This document shows, piece by piece, positions 16,841 through 60,193 of a stretch of DNA of 64,000 nucleotides. The notes beneath the pieces were generated by a model. It was not told the origin of the DNA. It saw only the letters and a program-made list of their open reading frames with translations, and made no database searches. A program made the position numbers and the translations under genes. The stretch's first letter is position 1, and the number at the start of each line of letters is the position of its first letter. Source of the DNA: a virus; the IMG/VR virus record IMGVR_UViG_3300044535_002275, positions 1-64,000 of that record. One strand, written 5' to 3'.

Positions 16841-16872
16841 GGAATTGTACAATTATAACAATTGTACATTCC
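16841..16872. repeat. Inverted repeat overlapping the gene 47 promoter
   Basis: GGAAT, a bulged T, GTACAATT, loop ATAAC, then AATTGTAC and ATTCC form a 13-bp stem. The left arm also contains the perfect palindrome AATTGTACAATT. It covers the -10 box, as an operator would, but could also act as a terminator hairpin for gene 55. Confidence 0.6.
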
Positions 16873-16881
16873 GATAGTCAA
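16852..16881 (-). promoter_or_regulatory. Sigma70-like promoter for genes 47-46
   Basis: On the minus strand TTGACT (16881-16876) is followed after 18 bases by TATAAT (16857-16852), 36 bases before the gene 47 ATG. Both boxes are near consensus, so host RNA polymerase should read it. Confidence 0.7.
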
Positions 16882-16892
16882 TCAGTTAGAGT

Positions 16893-17843: not shown

Positions 17844-17864
17844 CTGTCTCCTGATAGATTACTT

Positions 17865-17892
17865 ATTATAGCACGTTGTTGTCAAAAAACAA
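17865..17892 (-). promoter_or_regulatory. Sigma70-like promoter for gene 55
   Basis: On the minus strand TTGTTT is separated by 16 bases from TATAAT, 21 bases before the gene 55 ATG. An inverted repeat (GTTGTT, 7-base loop, AACAAC; 17875-17893) sits inside the spacer and -35 and could bind a regulator. A TTGACA also occurs, but only 9 bases before the -10. Confidence 0.6.
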
Positions 17893-17927
17893 CGAATATT
17901 TTTATAAACTTAGCCGTTTTTTCCTTC

Positions 17928-17935
17928 GATAAATA
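17928..17935 (+). promoter_or_regulatory. Late promoter-like motif before gene 48
   Basis: GATAAATA lies 20 bases before the ATG at 17956, one base short of the T4 late consensus core TATAAATA. It faces away from gene 55. The same motif, in the context TCGATAAATA, occurs before gene 6. Confidence 0.55.
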
Positions 17936-17955
17936 ATGCATAGGATACTGACACT

Positions 17956-44653: not shown

Positions 44654-45637
44654 ATGACTTATTCATTAGGTGGATTAATCCAAGCAGCAGATTACAATGG
44701 ATTTGTGGCCAATACTGTTGGCGCTAACGTTAACGGTATATGGGGCGCAGGATCAACCGACAGTGGTTACGGACAATCTGCATTGTCTACTGTGTCTGCA
44801 GCAGGAACTATTACAGCGACTCAGTGGGCATCGTTGGTTAATACTATAAGTTCTATGGCTAGTCATCAAGGCACTACTATTACTGCAAGATCGGCACCAG
44901 TTGCTGGTAACACAATTACTATTTTGAGCAACCTCAACACCGATCTTACTAATCTCACTACTAATCGTGGTAACGCTGCAGCATCTGGATCACAGTTTAC
45001 TGGATGGACAGGTACTGCTAGCAAAACCACAGGAACTGGATCTGGTACTACTGCTTGGACAATTACTTTTACTCATACAATTACCTGGGCAAGTGCAGCA
45101 GCAGCAAGATATTTTTTCAACGCCGGCGGCAGAATCAAATGGGAAACAAGTAAAACTGCAGATGCAACAGAAGCTGATACTGAGTGGAACGATTTGGCCA
45201 ATACCTTAGTAGGTGATATTTTTATCACCGGAGGAACAGGATCCCAGACCATTGCCGGAACATCGTACACAGGAACCACAAAAATAGGTGGAACAGGATC
45301 TCCTAACATTCTGTTGACTACAACTGGTTGGTACGATCTTACAACGTCGGATACCAACATTTACAGACAGTTTGCTGATACAGCACCTTACACTGGACAG
45401 TATATCAACATTGCGGCCAAAACAGCTGGGTCAGGAACACAATTGGTACTTACTACAACCTGGGTTGATCCCGGTGGATCAGGCGCAGGATCAACTGACG
45501 CTATTTCTGGTGGCACTGCTACTACCGGTATCTCGTTTGGTACAGCGCCAGCTACAGTGGTAACTTATTTCCCTCCTTCGGCTACTTATCTCAGCAACAC
45601 CTGGGGTACACCTACTGTTGCCGCTACAACTGCTTAA
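44654..45637 (+). CDS. Putative fibre or virion surface protein, 327 residues
   Basis: A Gly/Thr/Ser/Ala-rich beta protein. The N-terminus (ADYNGFVANTVGANVNGIWG, GYGQSALSTV, ATQWASLVNTISSMASHQGT) belongs to a type common in marine phages and usually found near fibre genes; I cannot name a function. A GGA ribosome site precedes the ATG. It is the last gene before a strong terminator and so closes the virion module. A fibre or adhesin subunit is the likeliest role. Confidence 0.72.
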   Translation: MTYSLGGLIQAADYNGFVANTVGANVNGIWGAGSTDSGYGQSALSTVSAAGTITATQWASLVNTISSMASHQGTTITARSAPVAGNTITILSNLNTDLTNLTTNRGNAAASGSQFTGWTGTASKTTGTGSGTTAWTITFTHTITWASAAAARYFFNAGGRIKWETSKTADATEADTEWNDLANTLVGDIFITGGTGSQTIAGTSYTGTTKIGGTGSPNILLTTTGWYDLTTSDTNIYRQFADTAPYTGQYINIAAKTAGSGTQLVLTTTWVDPGGSGAGSTDAISGGTATTGISFGTAPATVVTYFPPSATYLSNTWGTPTVAATTA

Positions 45638-45715: not shown

Positions 45716-46024
45716 ATGGATAATAATGACCTTGTTAAACAGGCTCGTAGCCGTTTTGATCATGCAGCGGCCAAGCGAGTTCTTAAAGAAAAATACGAAG
45801 CCAAAATGTTGTTTGCTTACAACGGTGGCATGTGGAGAGCTGGTCCCGAACTGAACACAATGATTTTTACCTGCGGGCGTGTGGGAGAAATTGTTTTACC
45901 AGATTTGTACGAAACTCCAATCAAAGTTGATTCCGCTGAATTAATGAAGCTGAGCCAGGAACGCTGGAATGAACAAATGAATGCCTGGTTGATCGAACAC
46001 GAAGAATTATCTCGACTACGATGA
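45716..46024 (+). CDS. Unknown 102-residue protein, first gene of the accessory run
   Basis: No recognised domain. The middle (MLFAYNGGMWRAGPELNTMI, then GEIVLPDLYETPIKV) looks like a small beta-rich fold, followed by a helical Trp/Glu-rich C-terminus. No ribosome site precedes the ATG, which sits 6 bases after a TATAAT box. The stop overlaps the next start by four bases. Similar small proteins occur in marine T4-type phages, to my recollection without known function. Confidence 0.72.
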   Translation: MDNNDLVKQARSRFDHAAAKRVLKEKYEAKMLFAYNGGMWRAGPELNTMIFTCGRVGEIVLPDLYETPIKVDSAELMKLSQERWNEQMNAWLIEHEELSRLR

Positions 46025-46824
46025 TGCGCGGCGTAGTCATATTTGCTTACAACAGTGGTGACATTGATTATCAAGCAATGGCTGCTTGGAGTGCTGGCCG
46101 CATCGCTAAACATTTAGGATTACCAACTACACTAATAACTGATATTGCTCCAACCAATTCGACTGTATTCGAAGATGTTGTTGTAACTACTGCTGAGTCG
46201 GGCGGTACCAGATACTTTGCCGATATCGGCAACAACGTAACTTGGTTCAATGGCAATCGGATGGACGTGTATAATCTGAGTCCTTATGATGAAACACTAG
46301 TGTTAGATGCGGACTATGTTGTTTGTAGTGATCAGTTAAATTTATTGTTTGATTCACCGCAAGATTTTTTAGCACCGATTACAGCATATGATATCACTGG
46401 TACACGTACATTTGATGATCTTAATTTTTTTGGCAATGTGCGTATGCCCATGGCCTGGGCCACTGTTATGAAATTTCGTCGATCCCTGTTGAGTAAAAGT
46501 GTGTTTGACATGATGTCAATGATTCGAGATCACTGGCAACACTATCGAAATTTATATGGAATTGCTAGAGCTACTTATCGCAACGACCATGCATTGAGCA
46601 TAGCCCTAAACACTCTTCACGGACATCAAGGTTGCTGGCCTAGCATTCCATGGCAATTGGCCAGTCTAGTACCAGAACATCGATTAACTCAATTAGATGA
46701 TGATAAGTTTCAGATCACATACAGTACTAGCGACAACAAACAGCGTTATATTATAATTGCTGGTCAAGATTTCCACGCCATGGGTAAACAACACTTGGGA
46801 GACATCATTGCCGGTACTAGCTGA
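46021..46824 (+). CDS. Putative glycosyltransferase (GT-A fold, DxD)
   Basis: A 267-residue protein. The N-terminal strand GVVIFAYNSGDIDY, a helix, then KHLGLPTTLITD and the DxD-bearing DETLVLDADYVVC (Asp96, Asp98) follow the layout of GT-A nucleotide-sugar transferases. A Trp/His-rich C-terminal region may bind the acceptor. The sugar and acceptor are unknown. Its stop overlaps the next gene by 17 bases. The fold call rests on pattern, not on a close family match. Confidence 0.7.
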   Translation: MMRGVVIFAYNSGDIDYQAMAAWSAGRIAKHLGLPTTLITDIAPTNSTVFEDVVVTTAESGGTRYFADIGNNVTWFNGNRMDVYNLSPYDETLVLDADYVVCSDQLNLLFDSPQDFLAPITAYDITGTRTFDDLNFFGNVRMPMAWATVMKFRRSLLSKSVFDMMSMIRDHWQHYRNLYGIARATYRNDHALSIALNTLHGHQGCWPSIPWQLASLVPEHRLTQLDDDKFQITYSTSDNKQRYIIIAGQDFHAMGKQHLGDIIAGTS

Positions 46825-47614
46825 ACGAGGATATTTGATTCCTGCTATCAATACCGAGGATGTTGATTACATTGCCTGCGCAGAACAATTGGCGCAGAGT
46901 ATTAGATCTTGGCATCCAGAAGCCCGCATTTGTTTAATGACAGCTGAAACTTATCAATCCAGACAATGCGGATTGTTTGATTGGGCAGTTACTTTGCCTT
47001 ACGGCGACCAATCTACAAATAAAAAATGGAAATTAAGCAATGATTGGCAAGCAGGGTTCTGCTCGCCATTTCGCCAGACCATTAAACTTGAAGCTGACAT
47101 GCTGATTACTAGTCCTATTGATCATTGGTGGACTATGCTAGAACATCGAGACATAGTGATCTCAACAGGTGCTAGAGATTATTATGATCAGCTAGTCACT
47201 AACAGATACTATCGTGAAACATTTGATACCAACGATTTACCTGATGTATACAATGCTGTAACTTACTGGAGGCTTAGTCAAACTGCTGTAGAATTCTGGA
47301 GATTAGTTCGTGCTATATTTAAAAATTGGGAAGAATTCAAGACTTTATTAAAGTTCCCCGACGATGATCCAACAACTGACGTGGTATACGCTATGGCAGC
47401 AAAAATTATAGGCTCAGAATTAATTACCATGCCATTTGCTAGTTATCCTCGCATTGTTCACATGAAGCGCAGATTAATTGGCACACGTACAGATAATTGG
47501 ACACAAGAGCTGACTTGGGAAATTGATCAAGGACGATTAAAAATCAACACTGTTGCTCAACACGGCGCATTTCATTATCTTGTTAAAACCTGGAGACCCA
47601 ATGAACAACAATGA
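46808..47614 (+). CDS. Putative glycosyltransferase, TTG start
   Basis: About 268 residues. I place the start at the TTG at 46808, because GGGAG lies 6 bases before it and the overlap with the previous gene is then 17 bases, as at five other junctions here; the frame is open to 46757. The order DYIACAEQLAQSIRSWHPEA, ICLMTAETY, then FRQTIKLEADMLI (with EAD as DxD-like motif) and a following DVYNAVTYWR fits a GT-A transferase related in layout to the preceding gene. The specificity is unknown. Confidence 0.68.
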   Translation: MPVLAERGYLIPAINTEDVDYIACAEQLAQSIRSWHPEARICLMTAETYQSRQCGLFDWAVTLPYGDQSTNKKWKLSNDWQAGFCSPFRQTIKLEADMLITSPIDHWWTMLEHRDIVISTGARDYYDQLVTNRYYRETFDTNDLPDVYNAVTYWRLSQTAVEFWRLVRAIFKNWEEFKTLLKFPDDDPTTDVVYAMAAKIIGSELITMPFASYPRIVHMKRRLIGTRTDNWTQELTWEIDQGRLKINTVAQHGAFHYLVKTWRPNEQQ

Positions 47615-47945
47615 AATTTTTGAGGAATTTTGGGCGAATTATTCATGGCCAGAATCTGTGCCTGTGTTTTATCGTTTGTACTATAATGAATTGGGAGAAC
47701 CAGTAGTTTATAGCATGGAAGACCGACCTGGTAAGTATATTGAAATCACCGCCGAACAATTTGCCGCCAGTGACCCGCATGTGCGTGTTCGAAACGGCAA
47801 ACTCATTCAATTGCAATTTGCAAGAACAACTAAACTGGTACCTTCTGACACAGGTACTCCTTGCGATCCCGCTAACATAGCGATAGTAGTTGACGAAAAC
47901 CAAATTTTTCAAAGATGGAAATTAACTCATTATGAAAACAGTTGA
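47601..47945 (+). CDS. Unknown 114-residue protein
   Basis: Starts at the ATG at 47601, which has GGAG 6 bases upstream; an earlier in-frame codon is less likely. The N-terminus FEEFWANYSWPESVPVFYRL and the segment PGKYIEITAEQFAASDPHVR are of a small type I recall from marine phages beside glycosyltransferase-like genes. No catalytic motif is seen. It overlaps its neighbours on both sides by 14 bases. Probably a small partner in the same pathway. Confidence 0.68.
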   Translation: MNNNEIFEEFWANYSWPESVPVFYRLYYNELGEPVVYSMEDRPGKYIEITAEQFAASDPHVRVRNGKLIQLQFARTTKLVPSDTGTPCDPANIAIVVDENQIFQRWKLTHYENS

Positions 47946-48858
47946 CATAGCAGACTTGGATGTAATTTATCTCAGTTATGATGAACCGCAGAAAGAAGAA
48001 TTTTGGGTAAAAATAAAAAATCAAATCCCATGGGCGCAACGTGTAGACGGGGTTAAAGGGTCCGATGCGGCACACAAAGCCGCCGCTGAAGTCAGCACAA
48101 CTGACCGCTTTGTTCTCATCGACGGCGACAACATGCCAGACTGGGAATTTTTTAATTTAACCTTGTCATACCCTACAGCAGAATACGAAAAGGCAGTGTA
48201 CCGCTGGCGTGCTCGCAACCACATCAACGGTCTCATGTACGGCAACGGTGGCATTAGTTCTTGGACTCGAGACTTTGTGCTCAACATGAAAACTCACGAG
48301 AACACCGACGGCCGTGATGAAACTGTAGTTGAATTTTGTTTTGATCCTGCATATTGGCCCATGCACGACTGCTACTCAACCACACATCCCAACGGCAGTC
48401 CCAAGCATGCTTGGCGTGCAGGGTTTAGAGAAGGTGTTAAAATGTGTCTTGACAAGGGTCGTCGCCCAACTCTGTCTGAGTTCAAAGCCCGAGTGCATCG
48501 TCGCAATCTTGATCATCTAACTGTTTGGCATAATGTAGGAGTAGATGTCCAGCAAGGGGGCTGGGCCATTGCGGGTGCTAGGATGGGTACTTATAAGACC
48601 ATGTTAAGTGATTGGGATTACAGGGAAGTGCAGTGGTTTGATGCCTTAGAAGCTTTATGGGAAGATACCAAGGGCAGAGATCCATTTGACATCATTATGG
48701 CATACCAGGATCCATTACGTACCCAATTAGATCTTCCTATGTGTATTCACGGTCCTGAAATAAGCAAATTTTTTAAGCATCATTATCGCAGCAACTGGCA
48801 CAATCAGGGTGTCATGGTCAGAGAAATTGATGTGATTCGGAGACAAGAAGGATGGTAA
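47932..48858 (+). CDS. Putative glycosyltransferase-like protein with IDGDN motif
   Basis: A 308-residue protein. Residues 10-67 run VIYLSYDEPQKEEFW, PWAQRVDGVKGSDAAHKAAA, then FVLIDGDNMPD (Asp64, Asp66), the arrangement of a GT-A domain with a DxD site, recurrent in marine phages. The C-terminal half has GLMYGNGGISSWTRDFV and a His-rich region. The first strand and the S-T-x-R/F-W/F-x-V-D pattern also recur at the start of the repeat protein at 62454, suggesting related modules. The acceptor is unknown. Confidence 0.68.
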   Translation: MKTVDIADLDVIYLSYDEPQKEEFWVKIKNQIPWAQRVDGVKGSDAAHKAAAEVSTTDRFVLIDGDNMPDWEFFNLTLSYPTAEYEKAVYRWRARNHINGLMYGNGGISSWTRDFVLNMKTHENTDGRDETVVEFCFDPAYWPMHDCYSTTHPNGSPKHAWRAGFREGVKMCLDKGRRPTLSEFKARVHRRNLDHLTVWHNVGVDVQQGGWAIAGARMGTYKTMLSDWDYREVQWFDALEALWEDTKGRDPFDIIMAYQDPLRTQLDLPMCIHGPEISKFFKHHYRSNWHNQGVMVREIDVIRRQEGW

Positions 48859-50255
48859 ACAACAAAGGCGACGAATCAATTGACAACAAGAGTCGATTCA
48901 TGAGCTCAGCTGAGCAAATGAAGCAAGATTTAGGTCCTGCATTATGTTTAGCCAAATGGAAACAAGTCAGTTTGCACTTGCCTACAGGACTCAATAACTC
49001 GTGTTATCATCCGCCTTTGCATGCAATTGATGCCACACTATTGGCTGACAATCCTGGTGCATTACATAACACGCCATTCAAGAAAGAACAGCGTAAAATC
49101 ATGTTACGTCAAGAAAAGCCCGCGGAGTGTAGCTACTGTTGGAACATCGAAGCACACGACCAACTAAGTGATCGTCACTATCGATCTGGCGAGCCCTGGG
49201 CAGCTGATGCATTGAATTTTGTTAAAAACTCAACCGGAGATGAAGATGTCGTTCCTAGTTATGTGGAGGTTAATTTTAACCACGCTTGTAATCTTGCTTG
49301 TAGCTATTGCAGTCCTCAATTTAGTTCCACATGGGAGCAAGAAATTAACCGCATGGGCGGATACCCTACAAGTCGTATTCACAACGATCCTAGTCACTTC
49401 ACTGGCCGTAACCGGCCTATTCCTGCTAGGGACAGCAATCCTTATGTAGAAGCATTTTGGCGATGGTGGCCAACATTGTATCCACAACTGAAACATTTTC
49501 GTATGACCGGCGGCGAGCCGCTTATGGACAAAAACACCTATCGGGTATTTGACTATGTGCTGGCCTTGCCCAATCCTGATCTGCATTTGAATGTGACCAG
49601 CAACTTTAGTGTAGACACTGGCTTGTTCGAAAAGTACATTGGTTATGTAAAACAATTGTGCAACACACAAATCGAACACTTCATGCAGTATGTCAGTCTT
49701 GATTCAGGCATAGCTCGACACGCCGAATATATCAGACACGGTATGAACCACGATCGAGTAATGTCGTATTCACATCATTTTCTAGCCGAAATTCCTTATC
49801 GCAACAGTCTCACATTTATCATCACAATGAATAATCTCGGTGTGTTGGGTTTACGGAAACTTTTGCAAGACATATTGGACATGCGACAATCCTACAGCAC
49901 AACATATCAACGTGTATGGTTTGATACACCGTTGCTGCGACAACCAGCCTGGCAAAGCCTGCAAATTTTGCCACCATCGTACGCTGATATCTTAGATCGC
50001 ACAGCTGACTGGATGGAATCAAATCTAGAAACTGCCGAAGATCCTTTTCATGGCTTCAAAGATTACGAAGTTCAACGGCTACGTAGAGACATTGCCTGGA
50101 TGCGAGAAGGGACTGAAAAGACGGACGAGAAGAAAGCTGATTTTTACAGATTTTTCAACGAACACGACCGTCGGCGCGGCACTGATTTTTTGCGATCATT
50201 TCCTGAAATGACCAATTGGTGGAAGGAGTGCGAAGCGCATGCTAGAAAATCGTAA
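48852..50255 (+). CDS. Radical SAM protein with N-terminal cysteine (twitch-type) domain, subtype 1
   Basis: A 467-residue protein. The N-terminal domain has Cys32, Cys51 (NNSCYHPPLH) and CSYC (93-96), the layout of an auxiliary Fe-S (twitch/SPASM-type) domain placed before the catalytic domain. The radical SAM motif is CNLACSYC (146, 150, 153) and MTGGEPLM at 218-225 contacts SAM. I know such proteins as N-terminal twitch radical SAM proteins; substrates are unknown. Its HHPP/ALHNTP segment is shared with the protein at 51368. An alternative start is Met17. It sits among glycosyltransferase-like genes. Confidence 0.88.
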   Translation: MVNNKGDESIDNKSRFMSSAEQMKQDLGPALCLAKWKQVSLHLPTGLNNSCYHPPLHAIDATLLADNPGALHNTPFKKEQRKIMLRQEKPAECSYCWNIEAHDQLSDRHYRSGEPWAADALNFVKNSTGDEDVVPSYVEVNFNHACNLACSYCSPQFSSTWEQEINRMGGYPTSRIHNDPSHFTGRNRPIPARDSNPYVEAFWRWWPTLYPQLKHFRMTGGEPLMDKNTYRVFDYVLALPNPDLHLNVTSNFSVDTGLFEKYIGYVKQLCNTQIEHFMQYVSLDSGIARHAEYIRHGMNHDRVMSYSHHFLAEIPYRNSLTFIITMNNLGVLGLRKLLQDILDMRQSYSTTYQRVWFDTPLLRQPAWQSLQILPPSYADILDRTADWMESNLETAEDPFHGFKDYEVQRLRRDIAWMREGTEKTDEKKADFYRFFNEHDRRRGTDFLRSFPEMTNWWKECEAHARKS

Positions 50256-51375
50256 CCTGGTCGTTGATACTTTTAGCGAAGTATACAATTTAATGAAACC
50301 ATGGATGACGCATGATTTTTGGGATTTTGCAAATCACGAAATTATTGGCAATTCCGTTTATATCATTAGCAGAAAACAATTTTTTGAATATCCGGAAAAA
50401 ATTCGAACTCTATTAGAGCGCGACGATCTTATTGTATTTTTTGATAATGCAGCAGAAGGATCTTGGACATTGATCAGTCAGCTACAAGCATTAGGGCTTA
50501 AAGAGTTAGCACTAAACAAAAAATTATTCTTAATCGGCGGCGGAGATATTGAGTCATCGTATGTGCATGTGCAATTTGAGCATTTTTTATCTAGTATTTT
50601 ACGCTACGAAGAAAATAGTCAAGCAACCAAACATATTGATAATATTTTTAAAAAAACTGACAAACCTTACAAATTTTTATTTCTAAACGGTCGAGCAAGA
50701 CCACATCGAAAATATCTCTTCGAACGATTCAAAGAAGAAGAATTATTAGATTGTGCAATTTGGACAATGCTAGACAGTCGTCCCAGTATTAGTCGCTCTT
50801 TTAAATTAGAAAAAGATGGCATTAATTTAATGGCCACAGTTTCTCCTCTAAAATGGTTACCTGAAGAATACGAATATCAAACATATAGAGGAAATGAAAT
50901 AGTGCCGGGTCCTCCTGAGCGTACATTTATCAAACACGAATTGTTTAAAAACGAATGGGGCGAAATCTATCTAGAACCAGCTCCTTACATCGACACTTAC
51001 TTTAGTTTAGTTACAGAAACAGTGTTTGAGTATCCGTACAGTTTTAGGACAGAAAAAATAGCTAAACCATTGGCAATAGGACATCCTTTTATTGTTGCTG
51101 CCAACACAGGATTTTATCGAGACCTGCGTAATTTGGGGTTCCGAACATTCGATAATGTCATTGACGAAAGTTTTGATACTATTGAAAATCACCAAGACCG
51201 AATGAATCGAATCTTTGAAATTGTTAAAGATCTGTGCCGACAAGATTTGCAATCTTTCCTAGCAGAGTGTTTTAATATTTGTAAATACAATCAACAGCAT
51301 CTAATTGAACTAATCCCGCAACTTCAGCAGCAATTCCCAGAAAAATTTTTTAAGACGATAAACCAACATGGATGA
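50239..51375 (+). CDS. Putative glycosyltransferase, TEKTFK-type family member 1
   Basis: A 378-residue protein. The C-terminal third (FRTEKIAKPLAIGHPFIVAA, NTGFYRDLRNLGFRTFDNVI, DESFD) matches the pattern of two minus-strand proteins at 60190 and 61364. This pattern recalls the nucleotide-binding half of GT-B/fucosyltransferase-like enzymes. A central FLFLNGRARPHRKYLFERF supports a phosphate-binding loop. AAGGAG lies about 10 bases before the ATG and the gene overlaps its upstream neighbour by 17 bases. It separates two similar radical SAM genes. The activity is inferred. Confidence 0.68.
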   Translation: MLENRNLVVDTFSEVYNLMKPWMTHDFWDFANHEIIGNSVYIISRKQFFEYPEKIRTLLERDDLIVFFDNAAEGSWTLISQLQALGLKELALNKKLFLIGGGDIESSYVHVQFEHFLSSILRYEENSQATKHIDNIFKKTDKPYKFLFLNGRARPHRKYLFERFKEEELLDCAIWTMLDSRPSISRSFKLEKDGINLMATVSPLKWLPEEYEYQTYRGNEIVPGPPERTFIKHELFKNEWGEIYLEPAPYIDTYFSLVTETVFEYPYSFRTEKIAKPLAIGHPFIVAANTGFYRDLRNLGFRTFDNVIDESFDTIENHQDRMNRIFEIVKDLCRQDLQSFLAECFNICKYNQQHLIELIPQLQQQFPEKFFKTINQHG

Positions 51376-52696
51376 TTTAACATTCCGCAAGCAAGTACTT
51401 GATCCGCTAAGTTCTAGTTTTTGTGGAGCCAAGTGGTACAATGCTACAATCTGGCTAGGATCCGGCATGACCACTAGTTGTCACCATCCGCCGGCGCATA
51501 AAGTCGGTGTGGAAGCAGTGACAGCCAATCCCCGGGCTCTGCACAACACTCCTGAGAAAAAAAGAGATCGGGCGCAGATGATTGCGGGAGAACGTCCGCC
51601 TGGCTGCGAATACTGTTGGAAGATTGAAGACATCGGACGTGACAACATCAGCGACCGTGTTTATAAAAGCAAAATATATCCCATAGCAGAATTAAAAGCT
51701 GCTGCAGCAATGCCAGTGGATCAAGATGTCAATCTTAAAACGCTGGAAATTGCGTTTGATCGCACTTGTCAGTTTGCTTGTAGTTACTGTAATCCTGCAT
51801 TCAGCAGCACCTGGGTCAATGATATCAAAAAGCACGGAGCATACATCAATTTGGTAAGCGACGGTCGCAATCACTTTACTCACACGCACGAGTCTGCACA
51901 GTTATATCGATTTGGCGAAACAAATCCTTATGTGGAAGCATTTTTTCGTTGGTGGGAAACTGACTTACATCGTACACTAGACGAGTTACGAATTACCGGC
52001 GGCGAGCCGTTGATGTCAGGATATACCTGGCGTCTAATTGATTGGTTCAAAGACAATCGCGGAGCAAGTGCAACCCGATTGGCCATCAATAGTAACCTAG
52101 GTGTTGATATTGACCTGGATAGATTTATCAACAGTGTCGACGGACTAGCAGTAGATGTGTACACCAGCAACGAGTGTTACGGCAACCATGCAGAATATAT
52201 AAGAGACGGTCTTGATTACCCTGCCTGGTGCGACAATGTAATCAAGTTGTTAGAAAGTTCTGTTCGAGCAGTGCATGTCATGTGCACCATCAATGCTTTG
52301 TGCTTGGAAACCTTACCAGAGTTTTTATCATCTCTGGTAGCATTAAAAAATATCTATGGACGTGAACGAGTTAATTTTACCTTAAATATTTTACGATTTC
52401 CTAGCTTCCAGAGTCCCCTAATTTTGCCCGACGAAATCAAAACACGTTACCGTAAAAACCTAGAAGCATGGCTAGATTACAATGCAGACAATCCTGTCAT
52501 GCAGGAACACGAACTAAATCATTTGCAGCGTTTAATTGACTACTTAGACACAGTCAAAACACCACACAGAGAAACGTTTGATATGCCTAAGCTATTGAAT
52601 GATTTCAAACAATTTTATGCACAATACGATCAGCGTAGAAACAAAGACTTTACAACGACGTTCCCTAAACTAAAAGAATGGTACAATTCACTATGA
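51368..52696 (+). CDS. Radical SAM protein with N-terminal cysteine domain, subtype 1
   Basis: A 442-residue paralogue of the protein at 48852. N-terminal cysteines are Cys19, Cys38 (TTSCHHPPAHK) and CEYC (80-83). The radical SAM motif is CQFACSYC (134, 138, 141) and ITGGEPLM lies at 209-216. Both proteins share RALHNTP-type and NPYVEAFFRWW-type segments, so they arose by duplication and may act on related positions of one substrate. The overlap with the upstream gene is 8 bases. The substrate is unknown. Confidence 0.88.
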   Translation: MDDLTFRKQVLDPLSSSFCGAKWYNATIWLGSGMTTSCHHPPAHKVGVEAVTANPRALHNTPEKKRDRAQMIAGERPPGCEYCWKIEDIGRDNISDRVYKSKIYPIAELKAAAAMPVDQDVNLKTLEIAFDRTCQFACSYCNPAFSSTWVNDIKKHGAYINLVSDGRNHFTHTHESAQLYRFGETNPYVEAFFRWWETDLHRTLDELRITGGEPLMSGYTWRLIDWFKDNRGASATRLAINSNLGVDIDLDRFINSVDGLAVDVYTSNECYGNHAEYIRDGLDYPAWCDNVIKLLESSVRAVHVMCTINALCLETLPEFLSSLVALKNIYGRERVNFTLNILRFPSFQSPLILPDEIKTRYRKNLEAWLDYNADNPVMQEHELNHLQRLIDYLDTVKTPHRETFDMPKLLNDFKQFYAQYDQRRNKDFTTTFPKLKEWYNSL

Positions 52697-54015
52697 GCAA
52701 ACTTAGTAATTACAACTGGAAGGATCGCATACCTAATTATATAAAAATTGATTCACTAAATGAAGATCAACGACACAAATTAATCGATAGCGACACATTC
52801 TGCATGCTTCCGTGGATACATTTACATGCATGGCCGGATGGGCGTGCTTATCCTTGCTGTCTGGGCCAGGCTAAACATCCAGTAGGAAATTTCAAAGAAA
52901 AAAGCATGAGAGAGATATGGAACGACGAACCCATGAAAGAAATGCGTCGCAACATGCTAGCAGATAAGCCTTGCAAACAATGCGGAGATTGTTATGAGCA
53001 AGAAGCTGCTGGATTTTCGAGTATGAGAAATAACAGTAATAAAAGCTTTGGACACTACATTGACGAAATCGATCAGACATTACCAGACGGCAGTTTACCT
53101 GATATGAAATTGCACTATTGGGACGTGAGATTCAGCAACATTTGCAATCTTAAGTGTCGCAGTTGTGGTAGTATTTTTAGCAGCAGATGGTATGATGATG
53201 ATGTTAAACTTTGGGGCAAGCCTTTGCGTCCGCGAGTACAATTTGCAGGGCGGCACGAAGAAGATGTTTGGGAACAAATGCAAGAGCACATTCCGCACTT
53301 AGAACAAATTTATTTTGCTGGTGGCGAACCGTTGATAATGGAAGAACATAATCGCATACTTAAACTGCTGATCGAAAAAGGCAACACACGAGTAAGATTA
53401 ATCTATAACACAAATCTTACAGAATTGAAATTCAAAAAAGAAAGCGTTTTAGAACTATGGAAACATTTTCCTTCGGTATGTGTAGCTGCTAGTCTTGATG
53501 ATATGGGCGATCGAGCTGCTGTAATCAGATCTGGTACCGACTGGACACAGGTAGAACAAAACATACGTGATCTCAAAAGAGAATGTCCACATATCGATTT
53601 TATGATTAGTCCTACATTGAGTATGATGAACATATGGAATTTTGTCAACTTTCATCGATATATGATCGAAGGAGGGTTTATTGAACCCAAGGATTTTAAT
53701 CTAAATATTCTTCAAGGTCCCGATGACTACAGAATCGACGTATTGCCAATGGAGATAAAATTACAATTTAAGCAACAGTTTGAAGAACATATTGAATGGT
53801 TACGTCCTCAAGATCCTATAGAACGTGCAGTAGGCGGATTCGAAGGCGCAATAAAATTTATGATGGCTACTGACAACACACACCTGTTGCCTAAATTCTG
53901 GAAAACAGTTAATGACCTTGACTGGAGTCGCAGCGAAAGTTTGTTGTCGGTTGTACCAGAATTATCTGCTATAATTGAACATAGACCGATCGATACAAGG
54001 GTTCCGATAAAATGA
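52693..54015 (+). CDS. Radical SAM protein with N-terminal cysteine domain, subtype 2
   Basis: A 440-residue protein from the ATG at 52693 (ATGA overlap with the previous stop; an in-frame ATG also lies 15 bases earlier). The N-terminal cluster is FCMLPW (Cys37), AYPCC (55, 56) and CKQCGDC (94, 97, 100). The radical SAM motif is CNLKCRSC (151, 155, 158), with FAGGEPLI at 208-215. The layout FCxxPW...CC is shared with the next two proteins and differs from the 48852/51368 pair. Likely an Fe-S enzyme working on a product of the same pathway. Confidence 0.88.
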   Translation: MSKLSNYNWKDRIPNYIKIDSLNEDQRHKLIDSDTFCMLPWIHLHAWPDGRAYPCCLGQAKHPVGNFKEKSMREIWNDEPMKEMRRNMLADKPCKQCGDCYEQEAAGFSSMRNNSNKSFGHYIDEIDQTLPDGSLPDMKLHYWDVRFSNICNLKCRSCGSIFSSRWYDDDVKLWGKPLRPRVQFAGRHEEDVWEQMQEHIPHLEQIYFAGGEPLIMEEHNRILKLLIEKGNTRVRLIYNTNLTELKFKKESVLELWKHFPSVCVAASLDDMGDRAAVIRSGTDWTQVEQNIRDLKRECPHIDFMISPTLSMMNIWNFVNFHRYMIEGGFIEPKDFNLNILQGPDDYRIDVLPMEIKLQFKQQFEEHIEWLRPQDPIERAVGGFEGAIKFMMATDNTHLLPKFWKTVNDLDWSRSESLLSVVPELSAIIEHRPIDTRVPIK

Positions 54016-55223
54016 AATTACCTACAGATAAATTCTGCGTACTACCATGGATCAGCTTAGAAGCCAGTCCGATAGGTACAGTGCGTCCTTGCTGTTTAGC
54101 CGACGACGAAATCGTTGACAATGCCGGTAACAAATTTGAATTGGCCACAGCTAATTTTATAGATATACAGAACAGTAATCACATGCGTCAATTGCGGGAA
54201 CAATTTTTAGACGGACAAAAACCACAAACTTGTCGCAAGTGTTGGAATGAAGAACGATCAGGTCGTACTAGTAAACGTATGCATACACTGGATAGACTTA
54301 AACACATGTTGCCAGACCAGGATTGGACAACTGATGCCAAGTCGCTTATGTTTTTAGATTTAAAATTGGGTAACATTTGCAATTTAAAATGTCGTATCTG
54401 CGGTTCTTGGAGTAGTAGTCAATTTGCTGCTGAAGAACTAGGTCACATGAATCCAGCAGAAGATAAAAAGAAAACATTTGCTTATCAAATGCTAAAGGCA
54501 GGAGCATGGCCTAGAGAAAATCAACAGTTTTGGAATCAACTGGATTCTGTTGTTGACCAGATTCGATATATTGAATTCACTGGCGGCGAGCCATTTATGA
54601 TACAAGAACATTTTCAGTTACTGGAACGTTTAGTTGATCGCGGCATCGCTGGACAAGTTGAAATTCACTACAACACCAACGGCACACAGTTCCCAGAACA
54701 AGCTGAAAACATTTGGCAGCATTTTAAAACAGTAGAAATCGCTTTCAGCATCGACGATCTAGGCGATAGATTTGAATATCAACGAACCAATGCTGTATGG
54801 TCGGAAGTTGAGCACAACATTGCTAAATTCGATGCTATGCGTTTCCGTAATTCCAACATACAGTTACAGGCATGCATCACAGTCAATATATTCAACATTT
54901 ATTATATTGCCGAAGTAGCCAAGTGGGCTGCAAAACAAAATTTTAATTTCGTTTACTGGAACATGATGCATGACGCTTGGTATTTTAGCATTGCTACCTT
55001 GCCCGAATCGGCAAAATCTGCTATTACTCAACATCTCAGTCAACAAGATGTTCCAATACAATACCGAGCAGAATTTGAGAGAATTTGCGATTTTATGAAT
55101 CGAGGAGCTTCAACCGACGGATCAATACTACGAATGAAGATACGTGATCTAGATCATAAACGTAATCAAGATCTAAGACAAGTAGCAGCTGAATTTGCTG
55201 AGTTAATTGATTACAAATTATAA
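54012..55223 (+). CDS. Radical SAM protein with N-terminal cysteine domain, subtype 2
   Basis: A 403-residue protein. The N-terminal cysteines are FCVLPW (Cys9), RPCC (27, 28) and CRKC (74-77). The radical SAM motif is CNLKCRIC (123, 127, 130), with FTGGEPFM at 189-196. NTNGTQFPEQ and FSIDDLGDRFEYQRTNAVW follow the usual beta/alpha order of the barrel. It overlaps the preceding gene by four bases and is followed after three bases by the next radical SAM gene, forming a three-gene block of close relatives. Confidence 0.88.
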   Translation: MKLPTDKFCVLPWISLEASPIGTVRPCCLADDEIVDNAGNKFELATANFIDIQNSNHMRQLREQFLDGQKPQTCRKCWNEERSGRTSKRMHTLDRLKHMLPDQDWTTDAKSLMFLDLKLGNICNLKCRICGSWSSSQFAAEELGHMNPAEDKKKTFAYQMLKAGAWPRENQQFWNQLDSVVDQIRYIEFTGGEPFMIQEHFQLLERLVDRGIAGQVEIHYNTNGTQFPEQAENIWQHFKTVEIAFSIDDLGDRFEYQRTNAVWSEVEHNIAKFDAMRFRNSNIQLQACITVNIFNIYYIAEVAKWAAKQNFNFVYWNMMHDAWYFSIATLPESAKSAITQHLSQQDVPIQYRAEFERICDFMNRGASTDGSILRMKIRDLDHKRNQDLRQVAAEFAELIDYKL

Positions 55224-55226
55224 TAC

Positions 55227-56525
55227 ATGCAAAAACCAGAAACACTATGTATGGCACCGTGGACTCATACGTATCTAAGTCCGCAAACCGAAAGACGTAT
55301 GTGCTGTGCCAGCAGAGAGCCTGCTCAAAATTTTCAACAGTACATTGATACAAGTGCAGGAACTGGACGTTATATTCCAATCACACTCGATCAGCACTGG
55401 AATAGCGAACACATGAAAAGTGTTCGTCGTAGAATGATGGCCGGAGAAATCTTGCCCGAGTGCGAAGTTTGTAACGATAAGCTGTTAAATACAGATGTCT
55501 ATAGAACTTATTTTTGGCATTTGTTTAAACACAAGTATCAAGACATATGGACTTCAACTGACGACACTGGTGCAACTACAATGAAACCAGTTAGTTGGGA
55601 CTATCGTTTTAGTAATTTATGCAATTTTAAATGTAGGACTTGTGGAGACATGTTGTCCAGTGCATGGGAAAGCGAGCAACGGCAAAATAATATGATCGAC
55701 TGGTCGAATCCTAAAAATAACTGGATGCTACCGGAAGTTAAACAAGAAATTACTGCTTTTCAAGATAGACAAATAGAAGCCGAATTTGCGCAAGCAGTGG
55801 CAGAACATAGAGTAGAAGAAGTTTATTGGGTCGGTGGAGAACCGCTCATGTACGAACAGCATTGGCGATACATGCGTCAGATTGTCGATCAAGGCGACGG
55901 AGGACTTGTTTATGCTAGGTATAATACTAATCTTAGCCGCGTACAGTATCGCGGTATTGATCTTTACAGCGACATACTTGATCGTATACGTGATTGGCAA
56001 ATCTGTGCCAGTATCGACGGTACAGGAGCCGTCGGAGAATACATTCGTACCGGATTATCATGGCCTGTATTTTTAGAAAATTTCAAACGAGGTGTTGATC
56101 ACATGCGTCATCCTCGTCAGATGAGATTAGATTTTACATTAACATTACCTGGATTATTTGAAGTATCTAATATGCAATCAGCTGCTGATCAATTGGGAGT
56201 AGGTATTTTGGCCAAGGTTATATTCAGCTTTAGTCCAGACATTATCATGAGTCCACTGGCATTACCTCGACACATATTAGATAGAAAAATCAATCAGCTG
56301 GTAAAACAATTGCCCGCAGGTGCCTTGCAAGATTTATTGTTACAGCTTAAATCCAGACCTACGTTCCAGGAACAGTGGCCCGATCAATGGCGCGATGGAT
56401 TGGTCAAAGGCAAACAAAGAGTATTAAAACTAGAACACATTAGAAAGGATCGTTATACGTTAGGAGATATTCTAAGTGAAGATTCCGAAATAAAACAATG
56501 GTGGGACGATGTCAAAACAAATTAA
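55227..56525 (+). CDS. Radical SAM protein with N-terminal cysteine domain, subtype 2
   Basis: A 432-residue protein. The N-terminal cysteines are LCMAPW (Cys8), RMCC (26, 27) and CEVC (79-82). The radical SAM motif is CNFKCRTC (132, 136, 139), with WVGGEPLM at 201-208. The sequence is the most divergent of the subtype 2 trio, with ASIDGTGAVGEYIRTGL later in the barrel. The stop overlaps the next gene by 17 bases. No substrate can be inferred beyond the pathway context. Confidence 0.88.
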   Translation: MQKPETLCMAPWTHTYLSPQTERRMCCASREPAQNFQQYIDTSAGTGRYIPITLDQHWNSEHMKSVRRRMMAGEILPECEVCNDKLLNTDVYRTYFWHLFKHKYQDIWTSTDDTGATTMKPVSWDYRFSNLCNFKCRTCGDMLSSAWESEQRQNNMIDWSNPKNNWMLPEVKQEITAFQDRQIEAEFAQAVAEHRVEEVYWVGGEPLMYEQHWRYMRQIVDQGDGGLVYARYNTNLSRVQYRGIDLYSDILDRIRDWQICASIDGTGAVGEYIRTGLSWPVFLENFKRGVDHMRHPRQMRLDFTLTLPGLFEVSNMQSAADQLGVGILAKVIFSFSPDIIMSPLALPRHILDRKINQLVKQLPAGALQDLLLQLKSRPTFQEQWPDQWRDGLVKGKQRVLKLEHIRKDRYTLGDILSEDSEIKQWWDDVKTN

Positions 56526-57600
56526 AATGACGCTTGGGAATTATTTAACCGGAGATAAATTACCAGTTTATATCGATGTTTACCAAAATTCACTGAGTGA
56601 AAAATGGATGGCTTCGTTAAATCAATTATTGAAAAATAATTATCATCTTGAAAAAAATTATTGTTTTTTTGGATTTGTCGACAACGAACGTGACGGACCC
56701 TATATACTAGAACAGATTAATAAATCAATAGCAGCTATTAATGCGTCTAATTTAGACTACCACATTGACGATTATTTTTCTATGTCGAACACTATAGCAC
56801 CTGGTGAAATAGGTGATGGCAAACCAGGAAGAAAAATTATTCGTGACAAGTTTAACTGGCTGCATAGATATTTTGAAGATCTTCAAGGAGTAAGTGGTAA
56901 CTTATCGCCGCACTATATCAAAGCCGATGCAACAACACGATGGCATATTAGACAATTGAACTTGCTGTGCCACGAGTTTGAATCCTGGGCACTGAGCTAT
57001 CGAAAAGTTGCACACGCACCTGAATGGCAACGCATGAGTCAGTTGATGTGTTGGTTACATGCTCCGAGATTTGTGTTAGATAACGAAGATTATGACTTGT
57101 TTGGGATTGAAACAATCAATAGATCATTGGGTGGTGTATACATAGGAGTAAACAAAGCTGTAGGTAAACATCACTGGGAAGTATTTTGTGACGAAGGTAG
57201 AGATTCCAGATTAGAAGAATTAGTAACTACATCATTGAGACCTCAAACTGAAGCTGCTGGAGATTTTGATATCGAATGGTCCAACGATCCTGGAAAATAC
57301 CACTGGCAACAAAAAATGCTAGGAGATTTTAGAACATGGTTAGTCAACAACGGATTTGATCCAGACGACAAAATGCTAACGATCGGGCACCCGAAAATTG
57401 CACAAGTTAATTTGCAAAAATCTTTCGGCACAGAAAATTATCAACACATTTGGAATACGCTCTATAAATATCTCGACGTGTACAGCATCGAAACCGATTC
57501 GGAATCTGCAATGTATGATTATCATTGGTCAGATTCTGATTTTGTTGAACGGCAAATAGAAATAATATTCAAAGGAAAAGCAAATGAATTGGCTGCGTAA
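56509..57600 (+). CDS. Unknown 363-residue protein within the radical SAM cluster
   Basis: No family recognised with confidence. It is a soluble protein rich in Trp, Tyr and His, with the segments GKPGRKIIRDKFNWLHRYFE, SPHYIKADATTRWHIRQLNL and a C-terminal MLTIGHPKIAQVNL. I see no metal or nucleotide motif that I would defend. The gene starts at ATG with GGTGGGA upstream and overlaps both neighbours by 17 bases. It may be an oxygenase or scaffold, but nothing in the sequence decides this. Confidence 0.75.
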   Translation: MSKQIKMTLGNYLTGDKLPVYIDVYQNSLSEKWMASLNQLLKNNYHLEKNYCFFGFVDNERDGPYILEQINKSIAAINASNLDYHIDDYFSMSNTIAPGEIGDGKPGRKIIRDKFNWLHRYFEDLQGVSGNLSPHYIKADATTRWHIRQLNLLCHEFESWALSYRKVAHAPEWQRMSQLMCWLHAPRFVLDNEDYDLFGIETINRSLGGVYIGVNKAVGKHHWEVFCDEGRDSRLEELVTTSLRPQTEAAGDFDIEWSNDPGKYHWQQKMLGDFRTWLVNNGFDPDDKMLTIGHPKIAQVNLQKSFGTENYQHIWNTLYKYLDVYSIETDSESAMYDYHWSDSDFVERQIEIIFKGKANELAA

Positions 57601-57685
57601 AATCATTGACAAAATTAAATTAGAAATTCGATATAGAAAGAAACTCAAAGAACTACGCAAAAGAGATCCGTTTATCTACAAATGA
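57584..57685 (+). CDS. 33-residue basic peptide
   Basis: Encodes MNWLRKIIDKIKLEIRYRK and then KLKELRKRDPFIYK, 33 residues in all, with strongly basic amphipathic character. AAGGA lies 8 bases before the ATG; it overlaps the previous gene by 17 bases and the next ATG by four, so translation is well supported. I recall similar short proteins with the ending RDPFIYK in marine phages. It could be a small regulator, a membrane-surface peptide or a substrate of the radical SAM enzymes; none is shown. Confidence 0.72.
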   Translation: MNWLRKIIDKIKLEIRYRKKLKELRKRDPFIYK

Positions 57686-59169
57686 AACATATCTTAGGAA
57701 TCAGTGCTGGATTTCATGATGCTGCTGCTACTGTAGTTCGCAAAGACGGAGAAATAGTATTTGCCGGACACAGTGAACGATACAGCAAGAAAAAGAATGA
57801 TGCCGATATTTCGTTAGAATTATTAAACGAAATTGACATGTCTTCTATTGATACTATTGCTTATTACGAACGTCCTGCAATGAAGCAACTGCGTCAACTC
57901 TACAGCGGTCAAGGCATTGAGTGGAATAAATTAACAGCTCGGCAAGTTCTTGAGAAGCAGCTGGGCTTTAATAGAATCAATGGTCGTCAATTACAAACTT
58001 ACAATCATCATTTAAGTCATGCAGCAGCAGGATTTCAAACCAGTCCCTTTGATCGTGCTACCGTAGTAGTTATTGATGCAATCGGTGAATGGGACACAAT
58101 TAGTATATGGGCAGCAGATTATAGTCGGATGGGTCAAGCAGTTTATAGAAAACTTTGGGGACAGCGTTATCCCCACTCAATAGGACTTTTTTATAGTGCA
58201 ATTACTCAGCGAGTCGGACTACATCCATTGGACGAAGAATACATAACCATGGGTATGGCAGCATGGGGGAAATCGACACATTCTCTAGCCATGCTCGATG
58301 ATTTATTACAAGATCAATCAGCTATTCGATTCAAAGATAATTTACATACCGGAATTGATCAATCTTGGATGTCTTCTGTAAAGAACGAAGACATTGCGGC
58401 TAGTGCTCAAGAACTTGCCGAACAACTGATTTACAATGTAATGCAACGAGCTGCTGAGTTTAATTGGAGCGATAATTTAGTTTACATGGGTGGAGTGGCT
58501 TTAAATTGCTTGGCCAATAGAAATCTTGGAAATTATTTTGATAAAATTTGGATTATGCCTTGCCCTGGTGATGCTGGTAGTAGCCTCGGTGCCGCTGCCC
58601 TGGCTCATGGTCGTCGCCTTAATTGGCAACATCCCTACCTGGGTCATGTTATACCTGGCGCATACCCTGTTGCTACTGCTGTTGATTGTTTGCTTGCTGA
58701 TCGCATCGTGGGAGTAGCCAGTGGCGCAGCGGAATTTGGACCACGAGCACTGGGCAACAGAAGTTTGTTGGCCGATCCACGCGGCCCTGATATCAAGGAA
58801 CAAGTAAATGAAATCAAACGTAGACAACAATTTAGACCTTTTGCCCCTGTCATCTTGGAAGAATATGCTGATCAATACTTTGATCTTCCTTGCGGTTTCG
58901 ATAGTAGTCCTTATATGCAATCTGTCGCCCGCTGTCTGGCTCCTGACTTATATCCTGCTATTGTTCACGTGGATGGCACTAGTAGAGTTCAAACAGTGGC
59001 TCCGGACTCGAGCTCAGGAATCAGACAACTGTTAGAAGCCTGGCATGCACGCACCGGATGTCCTATGTTGTTAAATACCAGCTTAAACATCAGAGGTGAA
59101 CCCATGGTCAACAATAGAGCTGACGCTGATAGATTTGAAAAATTATATGGAGTAAAAGTAGTTTCGTAA
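57682..59169 (+). CDS. Carbamoyltransferase (NodU/TobZ/CmcH family)
   Basis: A 495-residue enzyme that transfers a carbamoyl group, usually made from carbamoyl phosphate and ATP, to a hydroxyl of a sugar or related molecule. The N-terminal half opens ILGISAGFHDAAATVV and carries the metal site YNHHLSHAAAG (His109, His110, His113) with Asp132. The second half has MGGVALNCLANRNL, EFGPRALGNRSLLADPR and LLNTSLNIRGEP. The family is commonly near 560-600 residues, so this is a short version. It is the last gene of the rightward run. The acceptor here is presumably a product of the neighbouring transferases. Confidence 0.93.
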   Translation: MKHILGISAGFHDAAATVVRKDGEIVFAGHSERYSKKKNDADISLELLNEIDMSSIDTIAYYERPAMKQLRQLYSGQGIEWNKLTARQVLEKQLGFNRINGRQLQTYNHHLSHAAAGFQTSPFDRATVVVIDAIGEWDTISIWAADYSRMGQAVYRKLWGQRYPHSIGLFYSAITQRVGLHPLDEEYITMGMAAWGKSTHSLAMLDDLLQDQSAIRFKDNLHTGIDQSWMSSVKNEDIAASAQELAEQLIYNVMQRAAEFNWSDNLVYMGGVALNCLANRNLGNYFDKIWIMPCPGDAGSSLGAAALAHGRRLNWQHPYLGHVIPGAYPVATAVDCLLADRIVGVASGAAEFGPRALGNRSLLADPRGPDIKEQVNEIKRRQQFRPFAPVILEEYADQYFDLPCGFDSSPYMQSVARCLAPDLYPAIVHVDGTSRVQTVAPDSSSGIRQLLEAWHARTGCPMLLNTSLNIRGEPMVNNRADADRFEKLYGVKVVS

Positions 59170-59186
59170 CGTATCAAAGATACGTT
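59168..59186. terminator. Hairpin at the junction of convergent genes
   Basis: AACGTATC, loop AAA, GATACGTT form an 8-bp stem covering the stop codons of both convergent genes, followed by only a weak T tract on each strand. Possible two-way terminator. Confidence 0.5.
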
Positions 59187-60193
59187 TCTAAACCACCGCG
59201 TCGACGCAAGTCCTGAGTACAGCAACTAATACCACCATCCCAGAAGTAACTGTGTCGCAATTCGCTAATGATCGGTTCAATTTTGTGTTTGCGACAAAAA
59301 TCAAAAACTTGCTTGTTGTAAGCACTAAAGATAACATGTTGTTCATCTAATACCAAGCAGTTGACGTCGAACACAGTTTCGGCAACAAACCCCGTCCAAT
59401 TAGTAAGATATGTGTTTACGTAATTAGTAAACTCTGGAGTAGGAGTTTGTCCTTGAATGTACCATGCTCCAGGACTTTGTTCATATTTAAATTTACCAAT
59501 TTCCATAGCAGCCCAGATACTACTGTCCCAAATTTTACACACATCCCAACCAGGAAAATCTCTTGCTAGATTCAGATTAACATCGTGCTTGCTAGATAAA
59601 ATAACCCCAGGTTTAAGTATAGCAAATACAGCATCACCGTGACCGTCGGTTACTGCTTCGTGAATTCTATATTCTGGCCCTAGTACATTTTCAACAATCC
59701 ATTGAGTTTGATCTGGACGAAGAAAATCGCTATTGTCAAAAAAAACGTCTCGCCCTACACGTACAATACAACTAGCACTGGCGCCGTTTAATATACAATC
59801 CTGATCCCATGCACTTTTATGTGGATTAATTACTTGATCTGTATATTGCCCGCAAATCTCGTCTAGCTCGTGCATAGCTAATACACGTAACAATTTGTCT
59901 CCGAGAGTAATTTGCCAGTCTCTGGGAGTCAGTGGAGGTAGCGGAGCACCACCGCCTTCGGTTTGAAACCAAACAAACTGATCTTTAGGTGGTAAATCCG
60001 GCCGCAGTACACGAGCACCGTATTGTTCGATTGTTCGTTGAAGATTGTTGAGATCTTCTTCAGTTTCGGCTAGTATTTGCTGCAACTGATTGCGGACTTG
60101 AGGATTTTCAATAAAATCAAAATAATCCGGACTGTAGGCACGCCCTACAATAACTTCTTCAAGAGGTTGCCAACTGGTATAAGAATTGATCAT
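59174..60193 (-). CDS. Amidinotransferase (glycine/inosamine amidinotransferase family)
   Basis: A 339-residue pentein-fold enzyme that moves an amidino group from arginine to an amine. The family opening SWQPLEEVIVGRA is at 7-19, the His/Asp pair in VTDGHGDAVF at 181-190 (Asp183, His185), and the nucleophile in DGGISCCTQDLRRRG (Cys324 by alignment with the usual GGFHC). Family members make creatine precursors, streptomycin-type guanidino groups and toxins. Together with the carbamoyltransferase, a guanidinylated and carbamoylated sugar is an obvious idea, but the acceptor is unknown. It overlaps the upstream gene by four bases. Confidence 0.92.
   Translation of the reverse strand: MINSYTSWQPLEEVIVGRAYSPDYFDFIENPQVRNQLQQILAETEEDLNNLQRTIEQYGARVLRPDLPPKDQFVWFQTEGGGAPLPPLTPRDWQITLGDKLLRVLAMHELDEICGQYTDQVINPHKSAWDQDCILNGASASCIVRVGRDVFFDNSDFLRPDQTQWIVENVLGPEYRIHEAVTDGHGDAVFAILKPGVILSSKHDVNLNLARDFPGWDVCKIWDSSIWAAMEIGKFKYEQSPGAWYIQGQTPTPEFTNYVNTYLTNWTGFVAETVFDVNCLVLDEQHVIFSAYNKQVFDFCRKHKIEPIISELRHSYFWDGGISCCTQDLRRRGGLETYL

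Follow-up and report, generated by a model that had tools for sequence, protein, structure and literature searches.

A conserved run of five N-terminal twitch radical SAM genes, linked to carbamoyltransferase and amidinotransferase genes, in uncultured T4-like phages

Runs of radical S-adenosylmethionine (SAM) genes have been known in phages since 2010. The T4-like Campylobacter phages CP220 and CPt10 each have a cluster of five radical SAM genes with a putative glycine amidinotransferase gene; the two clusters have little mutual sequence relationship, the module was called interchangeable and its function was left unassigned, and the word 'carbamoyl' does not occur in that paper (PMC2853527). 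Five radical SAM proteins are also reported in another Campylobacter phage (PMC12398825). The T4-like ocean phage TARA_ERS488813_N000010 (183 kb; 2017) has 12 such genes (PMC5332604) which, in the description that served for comparison, are reported within an iron-sulphur (Fe-S) gene count and without a cassette order or a substrate. In pelagimyophages (2020) radical SAM cassettes lie in the host-recognition cluster, in the tail-fibre and glycosyltransferase region; the available portion of that report notes them as a contrast between two genomes and describes no five-paralogue set (PMC7029224). Here we describe a run of five radical SAM genes, named A to E, in the first 64 kb (the window, the whole stretch of 64,000 nucleotides that was analysed) of the 159,510-base IMG/VR virus record IMGVR_UViG_3300044535_002275. 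The new part is a fixed set of five paralogues with an N-terminal twitch domain; no description of such a set together with carbamoyl- and amidinotransferases was found in the open-licence literature. We judge it slightly better than even (a probability of about 0.52) that the cassette to which the five genes belong builds a glycan in the infected cell and decorates it with chemistry like that of aminoglycoside pathways.

The five genes lie on the plus strand at 48852..50255 (A), 51368..52696 (B), 52678..54015 (C), 54012..55223 (D) and 55227..56525 (E). Each product contains both CxxxCxxC and GGEP, and all five exceed the curated cut-off (170 bits) of the NCBIfam family NF033640, the 'twitch domain-containing radical SAM protein' or N_Twi_rSAM family, with scores of 291.9, 291.3, 417.4, 338.5 and 279.4 bits for A to E, respectively. 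Pfam is less inclusive: Radical_SAM (PF04055) passes its cut-off in C and D only, and SPASM (PF13186) does so in the same two proteins, falls below it in E and is not listed for A and B. In ortholog sets collected at 40% identity or more and 75% coverage or more, CxxxCxxC is invariant throughout and each set has seven invariant cysteines, four of them auxiliary and upstream of the barrel motif and three within CxxxCxxC (A, 61/61; B, 61/61; C, 62/62; 53 members for D and 52 for E); because the sets were picked at these thresholds, the invariance describes conservation within each group. D and E have one more cysteine apiece, Cys288 in 53/53 and Cys260 in 52/52 sequences. No conserved cysteine cluster follows CxxxCxxC in the alignments of any set; a single late cysteine of A, Cys460, is found in 57 of 61 orthologs.

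SPASM and twitch auxiliary domains are usually C-terminal. Here the auxiliary domain precedes CxxxCxxC in all five proteins, unlike that usual arrangement. A profile of C homologues matches, over positions 27-99, residues 183-258 of BtrN (E 5.3e-4), one of the aminoglycoside twitch radical SAM enzymes with NeoN and HygY, and this supports a twitch-like domain ahead of the barrel; in BtrN the matching stretch lies late in a chain of 270 residues, whereas in the cassette proteins it is N-terminal. The invariant cysteines and the BtrN match together point to a putative auxiliary cluster in A to E. The AlphaFold model of C, the only paralogue modelled, is confident (predicted local distance difference test score, pLDDT, 91.9; predicted template modelling score, pTM, 0.89) and predicts a radical SAM barrel, residues 143-404 of which match BlsE with a Z of 12.6 and a root-mean-square deviation of 3.8 over 222; CteB (12.4), anSME (12.3), SkfB (12.0), DesII (11.9) and MoaA (11.9) are ties. 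No PDB match was found for E by itself. These results bear out an initial annotation, made from the letters of the window, which placed five CxxxCxxC radical SAM genes at 48852-56525 with their auxiliary cysteines before the catalytic domain. The structure it expected is obtained in part, as a predicted barrel in C beside an auxiliary cluster that is suggested by cysteines and profile. Its remark that the architecture has no assigned substrate stands in that we found none, but the architecture already has a name in NF033640, a subfamily name without function or substrate, and runs of this sort have long been in print.

The paralogues are mutually 15-35% identical (A-B, 34.8%; C-D, 31.6%), and a recent tandem duplication was therefore rejected. 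In a tree of 160 chosen sequences (the window, Vibrio phage K566, 20 viral loci and 40 randomly drawn bacterial proteins) A, D and E formed single groups (support 0.856, 0.909 and 1.0), B formed one group with one bacterial sequence in it (0.998), and C did not hold together, 26 extra sequences falling among its members (support 0.142); labels were taken from the best hidden Markov model (HMM) match, so that labels and grouping are partly linked.

The gene run recurs as a conserved cassette in uncultured T4-like phages. At least 592 of 600 stretches in a first IMG/VR scan encode radical SAM relatives, and the best 80 were kept, giving 81 loci with the window. The loci have five radical SAM copies in 28 cases, six in 27, four in 12, two in 8, three in 3, seven in 2 and eight in 1; the low counts are partly due to truncation, because contigs end inside some loci. 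All five groups, assigned at 250 bits or more, occur in 49 of the 81 loci, always on one strand, in the order A-B-C-D-E in 43, A-B-C-E-D in 5 and A-B-D-E-C in 1. Two more scans, seeded with the cassette protein H1 and with the amidinotransferase N1 and using HMMs built from the first scan and A10, again kept the best 80 loci each. Among H1-seeded loci, A is present in 67 of the 69 that have at least 3 kb downstream, and the glycosyltransferase-like genes G1 and G2 in all 76 whose upstream sequence reaches 4 kb or more; in the amidinotransferase-seeded loci a carbamoyltransferase and an N-terminal twitch (N-twitch) gene accompany the seed in every one of the 74 whose downstream sequence is that long. 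The synteny is stable, and independent origins are not implied by it, because the three scans drew on related viruses and in part on the same contigs (IMGVR_UViG_3300023174_005338 appears in all three), which makes the counts non-independent.

The linked gene set spans at least 46021-62455. Its open reading frames (ORFs) from G1 to a conserved protein named Y overlap or lie no more than 3 bases apart, and the carbamoyltransferase gene starts 81 bases after Y. The range of the initial annotation thus holds the five genes but not the whole set, which is longer. Its proposal of a multi-step modification is well supported by the overlapping genes, the distinct paralogues and the order kept in 43 of 49 loci, and the genes are linked, not scattered, in relatives. 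It overlooked the genes that say most about function, namely those for the amidinotransferase and the carbamoyltransferase and the further glycosyltransferase-like ones.

The carbamoyltransferase (57682..59169, plus strand) is an O-carbamoyltransferase of the NodU/TobZ/GdmN type, with the N and C domains of Pfam Carbam_trans both over cut-off (Carbam_trans_C, E 3.2e-50); its profile matches decarbamoylnovobiocin carbamoyltransferase (2.5e-64), GdmN (2.2e-58) and TobZ (6.2e-41). Homology identifies N1 (59174..60193, minus strand) as an amidinotransferase, with the GRD, HxD and C motifs conserved. The protein of the window matches AGAT (4.3e-15) and inosamine-phosphate amidinotransferase (2.5e-11) by phmmer, the N1 profile matches HsvA (8.3e-25), and D149, H185, D187 and C324 are invariant in 9/9 sequences; the Pfam arginine deiminase-like family PF02274 (ADI family) has no match in the record, N1 included. 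The ORF between A and B (50239..51375, plus strand), which the initial annotation had called a glycosyltransferase, has a confident GT-B-fold model (pLDDT 95.0, pTM 0.91). All 50 of its VIA matches listed are glycosyltransferases (Z 10.6-12.7), the best being T4 beta-glucosyltransferase (12.7), tied with fucosyltransferases and others; by Foldseek alone its best E is 1.2e-3, and it matches no Pfam family above cut-off. N2 (60190..61380) and N3 (61364..62455), both on the minus strand, are homologues of this protein by HMM cross-match (E 1e-26 and 7e-15). A DegT-family aminotransferase gene (G65669-66694; the prefix G marks positions in the whole record) and an NAD-dependent epimerase gene lie just beyond the window. 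A large ORF at G63027-65675 (L008 28-2676) continues the window's ORF at 62454 and matches the H1 family (E 1.9e-24).

Aminoglycoside pathways join dehydrogenation, transamination, amidination and carbamoylation of sugars or cyclitols, by means of BtrN, StrS-type aminotransferases, StrB1 and TobZ, and the substrates of BtrN and BlsE are sugar-like antibiotic precursors. From the gene content, the linkage, two predicted folds and the conserved residues of the cassette we infer a sugar substrate, a set of reactions and their order, and an acceptor. The glycan would be built and decorated in the host cytoplasm during infection, its sugars being assembled or attached by the GT-B enzymes 50239, N2 and N3, probably by G1 and G2, and possibly by H1. 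Each of the five N-twitch enzymes would target a different carbon of these sugars, cleaving SAM and abstracting a hydrogen atom; the four-cysteine auxiliary cluster might then take a second electron, in a BtrN-like dehydrogenation of an alcohol to a ketone, or might sit beside a thiol hydrogen donor, in an epimerisation like those of NeoN and HygY. The DegT-type aminotransferase would turn the ketone into an amine for N1 to amidinate, and the enzyme at 57682 would carbamoylate hydroxyls. A shared chemistry finds its strongest independent support in CP220, another T4-like phage in which five radical SAM genes are clustered with an amidinotransferase gene, as here. Its radical SAM proteins are of another kind, falling below the NF033640 cut-off and having extra cysteines after CxxxCxxC, but its amidinotransferase is related to that of the cassette (E 5e-14), and its annotation adds two genes with sugar-transferase folds, one of them weak.

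NeoN epimerises with Cys249 as the hydrogen donor (PMC10991966), and mutation of one cysteine gives the twitch epimerase HygY a latent dehydrogenase activity, according to a title cited in the same paper. D and E would be the likeliest epimerases because of their invariant extra cysteines, and A, B and C would include dehydrogenases. In an alignment made without coordinates, Cys288 of D falls on S311 of C, next to the strand 307-310 of the C model, and Cys260 of E falls on A270 of C, within the strand 267-271.

Relatives of the cassette are scarce among 50,697 phage records, where C matches only three (Vibrio phages K566 and K567, and AG-345-D19) and B, H1, G1, the ORF at 50239 and the small proteins s1 and s2 match none. 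K566 has four N-twitch-like ORFs (74-120 bits by HMM), and in AG-345-D19, which derives from one single amplified cell, a truncated N-twitch gene (84 bits) shares 8 kb with genes for a carbamoyltransferase and an amidinotransferase. The carbamoyltransferase gene of HTVC008M sits with those of a UDP-glucose dehydrogenase and a glycosyltransferase. Both of these neighbourhoods speak for the glycan reading. Outside phages we collected 78 bacterial loci, of which six (L094-L098 and L149) looked phage-like and were put to one side; other cassette genes are present in five of these, whereas L098 has only three similar radical SAM genes. Genomes were scored through 44 of the 78 loci, the rest being mostly short contigs, and all 43 genomes so reached exceed the NF033640 cut-off, as expected from their selection. 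A Bacteriovoracaceae contig, L118, has eight N-twitch genes at 6136-18132 that cover all five types, with best matches to A to E of 669, 680, 514, 367 and 556 bits. The set therefore also occurs outside phages, and it may act on something other than a virion component. The Pfam families of 118 same-strand neighbours within gaps of 120 bp include, among the 25 of 103 families listed, Radical_SAM (18), GDSL (7), Por_Secre_tail (6), GT2 (5), B12-binding (5), PhyH (3) and carbamoyltransferase (2), which is suggestive of surface loci, not decisively so. Three further features of these bacteria were seen: the N-twitch genes of L118 lie near an ORF that resembles the Obg GTPase by eye, locus L123 has TPR-like repeats by eye, and an Elusimicrobia genome (G034, locus L161) has at least 33 N-twitch matches (33 of 114 candidates scored), many of them in long open frames.

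Several observations weigh against the glycan reading. Both the sugar substrate and the decorated product are predictions from genes, and H1, G1 and G2 are putative glycosyltransferases only. As barrel matches of C, the peptide-acting CteB, SkfB and anSME tie with BlsE. The epimerase call for D and E is an alignment to strands of C, without coordinates, and other cysteines are also often conserved, namely C312 of B (59/61), C303 of C (52/62) and C270 of A (54/61). The partner genes vary: in the first set of 80 loci, 36 have the carbamoyltransferase gene with 2.5 kb or more of sequence past it, and only 18 of these have N1; DegT was matched in nine of the 80, whose flanks extended to 10 kb at most. 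The non-independence of the viral counts has been mentioned. In bacteria the operon partners of N-twitch genes are mixed. HMMs for other cassette proteins found no partner gene in the L118 stretch, where the five types can thus occur apart from tail genes, H1, G1 or G2. A point in favour of the reading, that in the 43 bacterial genomes at least 14 of 59 carbamoyltransferase genes have an N-twitch gene no more than some 15 kb away where about 5.8 (standard deviation 2.2) would be expected, is weakened in that the 14 were picked by eye and the expectation is rough.

The likeliest phage acceptor of the glycan would be a tail-fibre protein encoded next door, a possible assignment and the weakest step of the proposal. 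None of nine non-radical-SAM cassette proteins tested has a hydrophobic segment. Only two ORFs in the record have three or more such segments, one of 10 that is TctA-like by eye and another of four, and this crude scan found no flippase-like protein in the record; taken with the adjoining tail genes, that suits glycosylation of a virion protein. The full proposition, that T4-like phages use five N-twitch enzymes to put a guanidino, carbamoylated and epimerised aminoglycoside-like sugar on their own tail fibres, nevertheless seems improbable to us. It would include an old, fixed pathway of five dedicated N-twitch dehydrogenases and epimerases, amounting to a virion glycan chemistry not previously described.

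The same glycan chemistry may instead have a host surface polysaccharide (lipopolysaccharide or capsule) as its acceptor, with superinfection or re-adsorption being blocked as a result, and this we consider possible, if on the unlikely side. The presence of all five types in L118 without tail genes is in its favour, as are the further sugar genes of the record (two DegT-family places, the epimerase, and Glf- and KdsA-like ORFs by eye), and the pelagimyophage authors, in the text available, interpret phage glycosyltransferases as altering the host surface (PMC7029224); the lack of anything flippase-like among the two multi-segment membrane ORFs of the record and the position of the cassette beside tail genes speak for a virion acceptor.

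It is decidedly improbable that A to E behave like the maturases of ribosomally synthesised and post-translationally modified peptides (RiPPs), altering amino-acid side chains in a virion protein or in a small peptide encoded by the cassette, with the glycosyltransferases acting separately. CteB, anSME and SkfB, among the structural neighbours of C, modify peptides, but BlsE, DesII and MoaA tie with them, within 1 Z. The small proteins s1 and s2 are candidate precursors by position only, and each reaches 80 bits in just 26 of the 81 loci, a count that short contigs lower. To our knowledge a pairing of carbamoyl- and amidinotransferases is not typical of RiPP loci, and we count it against a peptide substrate.

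That the cassette hypermodifies phage DNA, its carbamoyltransferase acting on 5-hydroxymethylcytosine like the MetaGPA enzyme, is very improbable indeed: a 5-hydroxymethylcytosine carbamoyltransferase of the same superfamily is known from metaviromes, the GT-B model has T4 beta-glucosyltransferase as its top match among many tied GT-B enzymes, and QueD-family and weak QueE-like matches occur elsewhere in the record, but the carbamoyltransferases of unmodified contigs are, in the part of the source at hand, flanked by genes such as those for glycosyltransferases (PMC8670742), the cassette adjoins tail genes, and the thymidylate synthase family (PF00303) has no match in the record, a ground that we used to reject DNA carbamoylation and that is weak evidence in a record that may be a fragment. 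Phage-encoded Fe-S supply was rejected on similarly weak evidence, the record, possibly incomplete, having no PF01521 or PF00111 match.

The remaining genes of the cassette lie upstream of A, apart from Y, and are all on the plus strand. G1 (46021..46824) is tentatively a GT-A-like (glycogenin/GT8-like) glycosyltransferase, its profile (A5) matching glycogenin-1 below threshold (E 0.094), and G2 (46757..47614) is its paralogue (HMM cross-match, E 1.8e-14); the listed TTG start of G2 may be too early, given an overlap of 68 bp. H1 (47932..48858) is highly conserved, with a mean column identity of 74% over 24 sequences, and has no convincing Pfam or PDB match. It has an invariant DGDN, which we take to be a GT-A motif, so that it is only a possible GT-A enzyme. 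None of 69 members of G1, G2 and H1, nor of 53 members of the GT-B family, matches a Pfam glycosyltransferase family, and the GT-A assignments of G1, G2 and H1 are accordingly kept tentative. Small conserved proteins are encoded by s1 (102 residues; 45716..46024) and s2 (47553..47945). Y (56509..57600), downstream of E, reaches at least 80 bits in 43 of 81 loci with a mean column identity of 66%; it has no NCBIfam, Pfam or PHROG match and no convincing PDB match. Ahead of the cassette are t1 (43281..44642), a tail or virion structural gene (phrog_14394, virion structural protein, E 1.9e-9) that is upstream in many relatives, and t2 (44654..45637), a conserved gene between t1 and G1 that has no PHROG match and is possibly structural by position. 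Further upstream, an ORF of 4643 residues at 28527-42458 strongly matches the virion structural family phrog_10938 and has only 7 cysteines.

The record has T4-like portal, head protease, baseplate and late sigma genes, and its portal is most similar, among phage records, to those of Sinorhizobium phage Phosso and PA5oct-like Pseudomonas phages, each less than 60% identical. Two further NF033640 matches, both below the cut-off and on the minus strand, are at 13595-13948 and G139728-140204. A second small cluster (G137332-141314, L011) contains a sub-cut-off radical SAM gene (G139359-140216), an N1-like amidinotransferase gene and two genes weakly related to the GT-B/N2/N3 family. A PTPS (QueD) family match at G122887-123363 (E 4.4e-15) and a weak, partial QueE-like match at G117266-117367 (29.9 bits against a cut-off of 300) possibly represent a 7-deazaguanine pathway. 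By eye, G82420-91145 (L009) contains a curli-like operon with CsgG- and CsgF-like ORFs and an ORF with curlin-like repeats (G87436-88047, minus strand), as well as porin- and PstS-like ORFs; pelagimyophages carry curli genes without CsgA or CsgB, according to the available text (PMC7029224). TctA/TctC-like transporter genes, again by eye, are found at G74058-76280 (L008) and may, together with the porin-like ORF, indicate that the host is a betaproteobacterium.

The content of the cassette makes the radical SAM runs of T4-like phages open to test, as regards dehydrogenase or epimerase activity for each paralogue, a glycan bearing guanidino and carbamoyl groups, and its possible location on the fibre. 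If the reading is right, sugar-radical chemistry would join the biology of the phage virion, and with it a family of permuted twitch enzymes.

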